Both the position numbers and the translations under genes were made by a program. A stretch of 64,000 nucleotides of DNA from Fibrobacterota bacterium (GTDB lineage Bacteria > Fibrobacterota > Fibrobacteria > UBA11236), in the NCBI GenBank assembly GCA_028287465.1, contig JAQBPO010000042.1, positions 1-64,000 on the forward strand, read 5' to 3'. A model generated the notes under the pieces. It saw only the letters and a program-made list of their open reading frames with translations, searched no databases and was not told where the DNA came from. The first letter of the stretch is position 1; each line of letters begins with the position of its first letter. Shown piece after piece: positions 9,580 to 24,970 of this stretch.

Positions 9580-9609
9580 GCGCGGAACCGTTTTGGGGCG
9601 GTTCCGCGC
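9580..9609 (+). terminator. Hairpin after icmF, no U-tract
   Basis: A perfect 11-bp stem (GCGCGGAACCG at 9580-9590 with CGGTTCCGCGC at 9599-9609) with an 8-nt loop, 11 nt after the icmF stop. No T-run follows, so it is either a weak or Rho-assisted terminator or an mRNA-stabilising 3' hairpin. Confidence 0.5.
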
Positions 9610-18751: not shown

Positions 18752-18785
18752 CGGGTTTTCCCAAAATCACGAGTTCTCATTTCGC

Positions 18786-18951
18786 GTTGTCCCGCGGACA
18801 TACGTTTCTTCCCAAAAACGCGGGAATTTAGCGCCAGTGTCGGGAAAACATACGCCCAAAGCCTCGGTTTCACCCCTACGCGAGTTCTTTTCTCCCGCCA
18901 ATCGCGGAAAAACTCTCTAAATTGGGAAACATCACCTTTGAAAGGGGTGAT
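18786..18951 (+). promoter_or_regulatory. Upstream region of the IS21-like gene: GTTGTC half palindrome, TAAATT, nested inverted repeat
   Basis: Between tdh and 19018 lie GTTGTC-N5-GACATA (18786-18802), a degenerate copy of the 9726 and 14920 palindromes, and TAAATT (18918-18923), a probable -10. A hairpin follows: ATCACC (18931-18936) pairs with GGTGAT (18946-18951). Outside it ATTGG (18921-18925) and CCAAT (18952-18956) also pair, leaving GAAAC as a one-sided bulge. The stem would sit near the start of the transcript and could be an operator or leader structure. Confidence 0.4.
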
Positions 18952-19017
18952 CCAATCGGTCTTTCCGCAGAGGGGTTTGCGTAGGCCGGTTACTTGGAGG
19001 GGAGAAAGGAAGTCGGG

Positions 19018-20058
19018 GTGAGAGACCTATCGACTCAAGTCAAAACCGCAAACCCAATTAGAGAATGGAAACTACCTGAACACATAGAAGCGGGGGAAGG
19101 CGGCCTGAAACCGTCGCCCATTTCCCTGCTCGGCATCGCGCCGTCGCCCGTGCCCTTGCATGGATTGATGGCCCACGCCGTCCCGCATTCCGCGGGCGCC
19201 GGCCTGGCGATCGCATCGGCTTACGGCCATGCGAACGGCAAAGCCGCGCCGGGAACCGGCGATCCGGAAGAAGCCGAGGAGGGGCGCGGCAAGCTCGGGC
19301 CCCATCTCAAGCTCCTGCTCCGGATGGTCGAGGACCAGCCGCGCGCAAAGATCAAGGACTTCTACCTGACCCTCAAGGACCGGGGGTACATCGGAAGTTA
19401 CGATCTGGTCAAGAAGAAGATCCACGCATTCCGCCGCGAACTCGGGCGGAACGCAGGATCGACCTTCCTGTCCACGGACGCGCCGCACGCCCAGGTGGAA
19501 ATGGCCAAGCTCGTCCTCAAGGGTTCCGATGGCCAAGGCCAGGCGATCGAAGTCAAGGCGCACCTGTTCACCATGGTGCTGGGCAACTCCGGCCGCTTCT
19601 ACGCGGAGCTCATCGAAGGCAGCGATATGGGAAGCTTCCTGCAATGCCACCAGAACGCGTTCGAATTCTTCGGCGGCGTTCCGGTCGGGGTCTTTTACGA
19701 TCCCCAGGAAAGCCCGACCATGCGCAGGCTGGTGGGGGGATTCCCCTTCCACCTTCCCGTGGTGGACTGCGGCCATCATTACGGCTATGCCGCTCAACCC
19801 ACTCCCGCTTTCGCGCCGTGGATGAAGGGCCGTCTCAAGCGGCCCGGCAAGGTCCTCAAGAAGCTCTTCTTCCCGGGATACGAATTCACGTCCCTGGAGA
19901 AGGCGAATGCGGACATGCTGGAATGGATGGCATGGCTCGGACGGCAGAATCAAATCCGCGAACGGAAGGAAAAGACCCAGCGGGAAAAGCTGGGGATGTT
20001 GCCCGCGATCGGATTCAACTTCCGCGGCCGCCGCCAGTTCCTGAAGCTTCGCGCCTGA
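19018..20058 (+). CDS. IS21 (IstA)-type transposase homologue with degenerate catalytic triad
   Basis: A 346-residue protein related to the IS21 transposase IstA: YAELIEGSDMGSFLQCHQNA and FEFFGGVPVGVFYDP match the integrase-fold core, and FFPGYEFTSLEKANA matches its C-terminal side. The DDE triad appears broken. By alignment to QVD, YDN and KGKVER of IstA, the residues here are Glu161 (QVEMAKL), Asp228 (FYDPQ) and Lys274 (KGRLKR), so the last acidic residue is replaced by Lys. A helix-turn-helix-like region lies at about residues 100-150. There is no istB and no terminal repeat. It has its own promoter-like region and a strong 3' hairpin and reads as a conserved single gene, so an exapted DNA-binding protein is more likely than a fresh pseudogene. 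I chose the GTG with AAAGGA 7 nt upstream; a TTG at 18994 is possible. Confidence 0.75.
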   Translation: MRDLSTQVKTANPIREWKLPEHIEAGEGGLKPSPISLLGIAPSPVPLHGLMAHAVPHSAGAGLAIASAYGHANGKAAPGTGDPEEAEEGRGKLGPHLKLLLRMVEDQPRAKIKDFYLTLKDRGYIGSYDLVKKKIHAFRRELGRNAGSTFLSTDAPHAQVEMAKLVLKGSDGQGQAIEVKAHLFTMVLGNSGRFYAELIEGSDMGSFLQCHQNAFEFFGGVPVGVFYDPQESPTMRRLVGGFPFHLPVVDCGHHYGYAAQPTPAFAPWMKGRLKRPGKVLKKLFFPGYEFTSLEKANADMLEWMAWLGRQNQIRERKEKTQREKLGMLPAIGFNFRGRRQFLKLRA

Positions 20059-20106
20059 TTCCGGTGTCTTGGCGCTCTCTTCCGTAACAAGCCTGATCAA
20101 CCGATT

Positions 20107-20133
20107 CTCCGGCTACGTCCAACGTAGCCGGAG
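20107..20133 (+). terminator. Strong hairpin after the IS21-like gene
   Basis: An 11-bp perfect stem (CTCCGGCTACG at 20107-20117 with CGTAGCCGGAG at 20123-20133) and a 5-nt loop, 48 nt after the stop. Only GGTTAGT follows, so there is no proper U-tract; terminator or RNA-processing hairpin. Confidence 0.55.
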
Positions 20134-20240
20134 GGTTAGTCCCTACTGATCTTGCGCGGCTCTAACCGGTTGTTTTATAACGGGTTGCCCGGTCGATCTT
20201 GTTGCGGATTGCAAAGTGTGTTAACTTCCCGAAACAGTCC

Positions 20241-20268
20241 TTGACCCAGGCGCAAACTTCCATATATT
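20241..20268 (+). promoter_or_regulatory. Promoter TTGACC-N16-TATATT
   Basis: A near-consensus sigma-70 promoter: TTGACC at 20241-20246, 16-nt spacer, TATATT at 20263-20268. Transcription should start near 20275 and drive the small gene at 20322. It is among the cleanest promoters in the window. Confidence 0.7.
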
Positions 20269-20321
20269 TACGTTCAACGTGGGGCAATGGCGGTTGAAAA
20301 TTTTTTCGGGATGGAGCGATT

Positions 20322-20522
20322 TTGGAACACTCTGACGATCTCATTGGCCTCGAAGATTCCCTCATGGACCTGCACCTTTCCGTGAACAAATTGATCAAGG
20401 TCATCCAGGACAATGCGTCGAATCTTGAACGGGGCGAAGAGGTGCTTAACAAGCTCCCATTGCTTGATTTCTACAATGAGGACCTGTTGCGGAACATCGG
20501 AAACATGCGCAGCCGTGCCTGA
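20322..20522 (+). CDS. Small acidic helical protein, 66 residues, unknown function
   Basis: A 66-residue protein starting with TTG (MEHSDDLIGL); GGAG lies 5 nt before the start, and a near-consensus promoter lies 54 nt upstream. The sequence has heptad-like spacing of Leu/Ile/Val (LEDSLMDLHLSVNKLIKVI), so a short helical or coiled-coil protein is likely. I recognise no family. Its own promoter, ribosome-binding site and isolated position between hairpins support a real gene. Confidence 0.62.
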   Translation: MEHSDDLIGLEDSLMDLHLSVNKLIKVIQDNASNLERGEEVLNKLPLLDFYNEDLLRNIGNMRSRA

Positions 20523-24180: not shown

Positions 24181-24214
24181 CCTGTCGATAACCCCATCCA
24201 TGAGGTCGGCAGCC

Positions 24215-24970
24215 ATGAATCCGAAATTCCCCATCGCCATTTTTCTGCTCTCGGGCCTGGTATCCATCGGATCCGCCGAGGAGTTCAAGGAAGGCCAGGT
24301 CGTGGCCTTTACGGCCAGCGATGCGAGCGATGAGACCATCCAAGAGGACACGCGCATCATGATAGGAGCGGGCCTTCTCCTTCCTATCGGCCTGGGAGCG
24401 GAATTGAGCGGCCAGTCCTGGGGCGTCCTTCCCAGCCACGGTTGGATTCCCGGCCTGTTCCTGGACACGCGGCTGGGAGCGGGAACCCTGGGCGCCAACA
24501 TCCGCGCCCGCGCCGGTATCGGGTATCGGAGCCACAAGGAGGATATCTACCAACCAGTATCCATGGGCGGCGGGAACTACCTGGGGGCCAAGGGCCCGGG
24601 CGTGAGCGGCCATGCGTTCTACGCCGGATTCGACGGGGAAACCGTCGGCGGCAACGATCCCTATAAGGCGGGCCTTTTGAGCGTGGGCTACCATTATGAA
24701 GTGGCCAGCCAGGTCAATGTAAACGCCGGCGGCTCATCCAGGGCGGGAAACCAGGTCGCGGCCCTGGAGCTGGAATTGACCCAAGGCGTAGTCGAAGGGA
24801 AGATGCATGATCCGGGAGCGAACTTCGCAGGCGATATCGGATTGGGCGGGCGCTGGTATACCCGGTTCGAGGTGGGACTTCTCTGGGGAGACGAGACCAC
24901 CTTCCGCATGTTGCGGATGACCGGCCTGATCTGCTATAAGTTCGGTCTCAATCTGCCCGGCCTGAAGTAA
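24215..24970 (+). CDS. Secreted or outer-membrane protein of unknown function
   Basis: A 251-residue protein with a signal peptide (MNPKFPIAIFLLSGLVSIGSA, cleavage near residue 22). The mature part alternates short Gly-rich and hydrophobic stretches (GAGLLLPIGLGAELSG, RLGAGTLGANIRARAGIGYR) and ends in a hydrophobic segment, as in small outer-membrane beta-barrels; that is inference. Its own TATAAT promoter lies 34 nt upstream. The first in-frame ATG at 24200 is less likely because GAGG stands 9 nt before the one chosen. Confidence 0.7.
   Translation: MNPKFPIAIFLLSGLVSIGSAEEFKEGQVVAFTASDASDETIQEDTRIMIGAGLLLPIGLGAELSGQSWGVLPSHGWIPGLFLDTRLGAGTLGANIRARAGIGYRSHKEDIYQPVSMGGGNYLGAKGPGVSGHAFYAGFDGETVGGNDPYKAGLLSVGYHYEVASQVNVNAGGSSRAGNQVAALELELTQGVVEGKMHDPGANFAGDIGLGGRWYTRFEVGLLWGDETTFRMLRMTGLICYKFGLNLPGLK

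Follow-up and report, generated by a model that had tools for sequence, protein, structure and literature searches.

Whether a lone open reading frame that resembles an IS21 transposase is part of a mobile element, the remnant of one or a gene that now serves its host is the question raised by gene A, which lies at positions 19018 to 20058 (+ strand) of the 64,000-nucleotide stretch of Fibrobacterota DNA analyzed here (the window; genome G000). The original prediction held that the frame encodes an IstA homologue that has lost the last residue of its catalytic triad and has been selected for a role other than transposition. The frame is indeed fully open and was read as 346 amino acids from the GTG at 19018 to the TGA at 20058. 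The GTG start is supported by the orthologue in genome G004, in which a 1-nt deletion immediately 5' of the GTG shifts the frame while the sequence is otherwise near-identical, marking the stretch before the GTG as non-coding.

The proposed resemblance to IstA was borne out by profile and structure searches. The NCBIfam model for IS21 transposases, NF033546, matched the gene A product with an E-value of 3.4e-31 and 108.9 bits, a score under the model's 160-bit cut-off, and among solved structures the IstA of IS5376 (8q4d) matched it with an E-value of 5.6e-14. With an 11-row profile of gene A and a second IstA-derived gene, gene B, the match to 8q4d reached 4.8e-32. The only Pfam match of gene A was a weak one to rve (0.0022). 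PADLOC gave no defense-system match for gene A, and three scans of viral contigs detected no relative of it. Matches at less than 60% identity were found in 178 plasmid records, and the ten listed ones are annotated as IS21 transposases or integrase.

The gene A product retains part of the IstA architecture. At its N-terminus is a short conserved peptide, LSTxxxxANP, followed by a linker of variable length, with 53-106 residues ahead of the core across the orthologues. After the linker come an HTH-2-like region (residues 90-150; 19285..19467, + strand), predicted as three helices, and a putative RNase H-like core with a pI of 9.7-10.1; the protein stops before the barrel of IstA. An AlphaFold prediction (five sequences) had a mean pLDDT of 41.9 and exceeded 70 only at residues of about 91-140, in the HTH-2-like part. 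Because the structure prediction had low confidence, the assignment of the core fold rests on sequence.

The catalytic residues of IS5376 IstA are D124, D187 and E233, and integration is reported to be nearly abolished when they are mutated (PMC10122671). These residues were aligned by phmmer with Glu161 (19498..19500), Asp228 (19699..19701) and Lys274 (19837..19839) of the gene A product, all on the + strand. The numbering given for the triad in the original prediction was exact, but two of the three acids have changed, not the last one alone: Glu161 replaces Asp124 and Lys274 replaces Glu233. Both replacements are invariant in all six orthologues, and Asp228, the equivalent of Asp187, is Asn in the G004 orthologue. 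Lys274 lies inside PWMKGRLKRPGK, and where IstA has KGKVERAIQ the gene A product has KGRLKRPGK, from which acid residues are absent. As controls, eight ordinary IS21 transposases of 428-550 aa (seven matches outside the genus and one IS21 of genome G005) were aligned, and the triad was intact in all eight as invariant D165, D228 and E274.

The other parts of an IS21 element were not detected at the locus. There is no istB on the contig of gene A, as had been noted at the outset, and PF01695 matches in G000 were weak, partial and confined to three other contigs (best E-value 9.3e-9). The absence of inverted ends also held, with no flanking pair of terminal inverted repeats in 18752-20350; the sole inverted pair in this interval is 18 nt long (78%) and has one arm within gene A. 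Gene A occurs in one copy per genome, and G000 holds gene A and one paralogue. Gene A has the IstA-type protein of an IS21 element and lacks the intact D-D-E triad, istB, ends and mobility.

A terminator hairpin had been proposed downstream of the gene. A very strong hairpin (z -5.0), a perfect palindrome, is present at 20107..20133 (+ strand), but it lacks a T-run and was not predicted to be a terminator. The palindrome is near-identical at the same place in G002 and absent from the other four genomes. A REP-like repeat at the 3' end of gene A was ruled out, since the hairpin occurs once in the window and is not repeated among the loci searched. Another perfect 11-bp hairpin is located at 9580-9609 of the window.

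Comparison among genomes showed that gene A is a fixed gene of one genus. An orthologue with an open frame was present in the same neighborhood in all six genomes of the genus (G000-G005), the other five orthologues being 56-81% identical. A protein search of 61 genomes yielded eight with a match, and a profile search of 167 genomes of the phylum yielded 19 with a match, gene A itself being confined to the genus. The neighboring g20322, corC, ybeY and g22426 are kept in all five other genomes of the genus; tdh and kbl are kept near gene A in three of them (G005, G002 and G004) and gave no match on the stretch fetched around gene A in G003 and G001. The corC-ybeY-g22426 block is also kept in four of four genomes of the sister genus, where no gene A was found. 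The dN/dS ratio of the core was 0.069-0.299 in 11 of the 15 orthologue pairs; dS was high in all comparisons and infinite in the remaining four pairs. These ratios, well below 1, indicate that the gene A core is under purifying selection.

Loss of HTH-1, the barrel, the ends and istB is what a decaying, functionless IS21 remnant could look like, but the frame is open in every genome of the genus, the core dN/dS is 0.07-0.30 and the neighborhood is the same, so this reading is already contradicted and retains almost no probability. Gene A is not limited to one genome, is single-copy where it occurs, and none of its orthologues has an intact triad. The fixed locus, purifying selection and invariant E161 and K274 support the proposal of selection for a non-transposition role, and with vertical inheritance at a fixed locus and a core under purifying selection, the domestication of gene A in this small group of environmental Fibrobacteres bacteria is well supported. 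The specific role that had been suggested, DNA binding or silencing, would fit the HTH-2-like region and the basic core.

Two further genes of the window were noted. A 66-aa protein without a Pfam match is encoded at 20322-20522 (+ strand), adjoining gene A, and is present in the five other genomes of the genus at 66-80% identity. A 256-aa frame at 24200-24970 (+ strand), also without a Pfam match, is located between mqnE-like and sulfite-oxidase-like genes, which were named from their translations.

A second fixed IstA-derived gene, like the replaced N-terminus and the structured RNA leader of gene A, went beyond the original prediction. Gene B (G000:C66:45540-46406; L002 and L015, with relatives L010, L011, L012 and L013) is at a fixed place in four of the six genomes of the genus, and G002 has one extra, divergent copy. 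Its site is flanked by a LysR-type gene on one side and, on the other, by a 247-aa gene that lies next to a moaA-like gene, the LysR and moaA names being read from translations. Gene B retains the first Asp as well as the first HTH, and Lys is present at the third catalytic position in five of five sequences. Phylogenetic analysis placed the six A genes in one group (100/100) and separated genes A and B from the eight IS21 transposases (100/100), and the grouping of gene B as a single group was weakly supported (70/53). One loss of catalysis before genes A and B parted would be the simplest reading of this tree, the root of which was placed at the midpoint only.

Resident IS21 elements were also detected. 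An active-looking istA-istB pair in G005 (C74; L025) includes the only IS21 transposase match of the genus above the curated cut-off. The locus G003:C14:292391-293109 (L084), which matched the IS21 model, was rejected as a gene B and is a broken ordinary IS21 in two overlapping frames. A dead IstA could guard its host against such elements by blocking transposition through mixed oligomers or by occupying IS21 ends, and both the G005 pair and the broken G003 element speak for this possibility, as does the report that IstA binds the ends as a tetramer through its HTH domains (PMC10122671). However, a match above the curated cut-off was present in just one of six genomes, the HTH-1 equivalent is missing in gene A, gene A is about 29% identical to the resident IS21, and a guard would need no covarying leader. 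A role in guarding against IS21 appears very unlikely.

The region upstream of gene A contains a conserved leader of about 130 nt, which extends from a TAAATT sequence about 100 nt before the start into codon 13. The promoter-like region was less clear than originally predicted: the -10-like box TAAATTGGG (18918..18926, + strand), just ahead of the folded leader, has TAAATT in six of six orthologues, but neither a promoter consensus nor a -35 consensus was detected by the sigma-70 scan of the sequence upstream of gene A. The folded leader, all on the + strand, begins with hairpin P0 (18932..18950, with arms at 18932-18936 and 18946-18950), followed by the nine-pair hairpin P1 (18954..18991), which bears an apical hairpin of nearly invariant sequence, CGCAGA-GGGG-TTTGCG (18966..18981). 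A conserved purine tract, GGAGGGGAGAAAGG (18996..19009), contains the likely ribosome-binding site. The start-codon hairpin P2 (AGTCG GGGT / ACCT AT CGACT; 19011..19035) has nine mostly invariant pairs and encloses the GTG at 19018.

The leader is a conserved structured RNA with compensatory changes. Plain MAFFT alignments misplaced P0 and P1, and a hand count and then a model-fitted alignment were used. The structure-fitted alignment of the six genomes contained 29 pairs, and 97.6% of 169 cells were paired; its model came from the leader of the window itself, and the alignment is biased towards that structure. Seven pairs changed on both sides, three of the five in P0 and four in P1, among six orthologues of one genus that are all closely related for such a test. 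None of 500 shuffles matched the pairing of the leader or its both-sides changes, and sliding the alignment by 1-3 columns reduced pairing to 33-49%. When the sequences were folded separately, P0, P1 and the GGGG-capped apical hairpin were predicted in six of six; P2 was in the minimum-energy fold of five genomes, and G003 had a P2 variant in the centroid and not P2 as drawn in the minimum-energy fold. Single-sequence folding z-scores were modest (-0.87 to -4.07). The apical stem and P2 hardly vary and thus show conservation without double changes.

Mean pairwise identity was 69% in the leader versus 41% in the 90 nt before it; it was 31% in the linker codons, 21% in the 90 nt that follow the stop codon and 40% in the 100 nt ahead of gene B (four orthologues). 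With the leader of the window as its only input, a model recovered the other five with E-values of 4.9e-14 or better. Searches with models R1 (13 genomes; the 150 best candidates per genome scored) and R2 (six genomes) found the leader once per genome, at gene A only, and the next-best matches had E-values of 0.59 and 3.35, respectively. Rfam contained no family match, the best two hits (E-values of 3 and 4.1) being far below gathering scores. A conserved folded RNA at the start of the message probably controls the amount of the gene A product.

The same nucleotides might instead act as DNA, as an operator for the gene A protein or another repressor. Transposases can bind repeats, and the nested inverted repeats AGTCG/CGACT and GGGTTTGCG/CGCAAACCC are nearly invariant. 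The centers of the two repeats are about 9 nt apart, however, and P0 and P1 stay paired while their letters change (the seven both-sides pairs), unlike a protein site, making an operator rather unlikely. We give slightly less credence to a leader that is itself the functional product, processed to a trans-acting small RNA with the protein secondary. Its apical loop is nearly invariant and seed-like, and IS200 of Salmonella, with the 5' end of its tnpA transcript, is a reported precedent (PMC12594629), but strong purifying selection acts on the protein core as well, and conservation runs on into the start-codon hairpin and codons, pointing to control in cis. The operator, the trans-acting RNA and the guard against IS21 are each less well supported than cis control of a regulatory protein.

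Conservation of the leader continues into the coding region in a manner suggesting selection on nucleotides. Codons 4, 6 and 11 are CTA, ACT and GCA in most orthologues, codons that account for 1, 3 and 2% of their class across nine neighboring genes. In the first 13 codons, conservation was 0.67 at the third versus 0.66 at the second position, compared with 0.52 versus 0.83 in the core codons. From the rare conserved codons and the conserved third positions, selection seems to act on nucleotides over these 13 codons; eight of the nine neighboring genes also have AT-richer third bases close to their starts, though less strongly so. Within this stretch, codons 11-13 (CGCAAACCC; 19047..19055, + strand), which encode A-N-P with the host-rare codon GCA, are complementary to GGGTTTGCG in the leader (18973..18981, + strand), a suggestive partnership that would exclude the apical hairpin.

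Forcing the GGGTTTGCG/CGCAAACCC pairing cost 0-3 kcal/mol in all six genomes, and in three it was part of the best fold. In five of the six genomes, synonymous recodings equaled the long-range pairing in 1.4-1.7% of cases under host codon usage and in 4-14% under uniform usage; for G003, where the Watson-Crick run reaches only 6, 38% of recodings did as well without G-U. In either fold the start codon is mostly paired. A two-state switch between the apical hairpin and the pairing of the leader with codons 11-13 is accordingly a candidate, recoding making the pairing unusual and not compelling. It is possible, although unlikely, that the dead transposase, with its now basic active site, binds the nearly invariant GGGG-capped hairpin of its own leader and thereby switches an RNA with two stable folds, so that the start codon is either hidden or exposed. 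If so, a DDE transposase would have turned into an RNA-binding autoregulator, partnered by a new cis-acting RNA.

With moderate confidence, we propose that gene A encodes a domesticated, catalytically dead nucleic-acid-binding regulator of IstA type, whose synthesis would be controlled by the leader of its own mRNA. The ancestor of this Fibrobacteres genus would have captured an IS21-type istA copy, which would have lost its istB partner, ends, C-terminal barrel, first DNA-binding domain and catalytic acids and become a fixed host gene. The protein appears to keep the second DNA-binding region of IstA and an RNase H-like core with a basic active site. A regulatory role in binding nucleic acids, most likely without cleavage, is the likeliest because the DNA-binding region and the strongly basic core are kept and catalysis is gone. 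Synthesis would most likely be under translational control by the structured leader: one of its helices contains the GTG, and the apical hairpin and the pairing with codons 11-13, excluding each other, may form a switch.

Transposase domestication is well described in eukaryotes, and the bacterial cases known to us seem few and mostly derive from enzyme classes other than DDE. The RAYT family consists of Y1 (HUH) transposases, whereas gene A is of the DDE/RNase H type, and TldR is derived from TnpB with loss of nuclease activity. Among known systems, the IS21 IstA of IS5376 (PDB 8b4h/8q4d) is close to gene A, which aligns with IS21 transposases of the phylum across its HTH-2-like region and RNase H-like core, at 27% identity over 241 columns. 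Unlike this IstA, gene A has D124 replaced by E and E233 by K, occupies one fixed locus with no istB and no ends, and lacks the barrel (IstA 300-355) and HTH-1 (IstA 1-39), having a new N-terminal peptide and linker instead. TnpA-REP/RAYT is likewise described as a bacterial transposase retained as a host gene, but is tied to REP repeats (PMC8266576), whereas the hairpin beside gene A is single in the window. TldR is a transposon-derived protein reported to act as a regulator (PMC13418256); it is RNA-guided and unrelated to the gene A protein, for which no guide RNA is known, and the conserved RNA here is the gene's own leader. The 5' leader of IS200 tnpA in Salmonella is comparable as a highly structured 5' RNA of a transposase transcript with a reported regulatory role in the host (PMC12594629), although neither that transposase nor its RNA structure is related to gene A and its leader.

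A term search of a review on recruited prokaryotic mobile-element genes (PMC8987985) found no mention of IS21, IstA or DDE, and our literature search, within a reach that left out most subscription journals, retrieved no comparable domesticated IS21 or IstA case. This genus has fixed two genes from a single DDE lineage, each reduced to a different degree: gene B retains the first HTH and gene A does not. The most unusual part is the covarying leader RNA of gene A, which the searches located nowhere else. Should the protein act on this leader or at other sites, the two together would offer a testable path from transposase to regulator.
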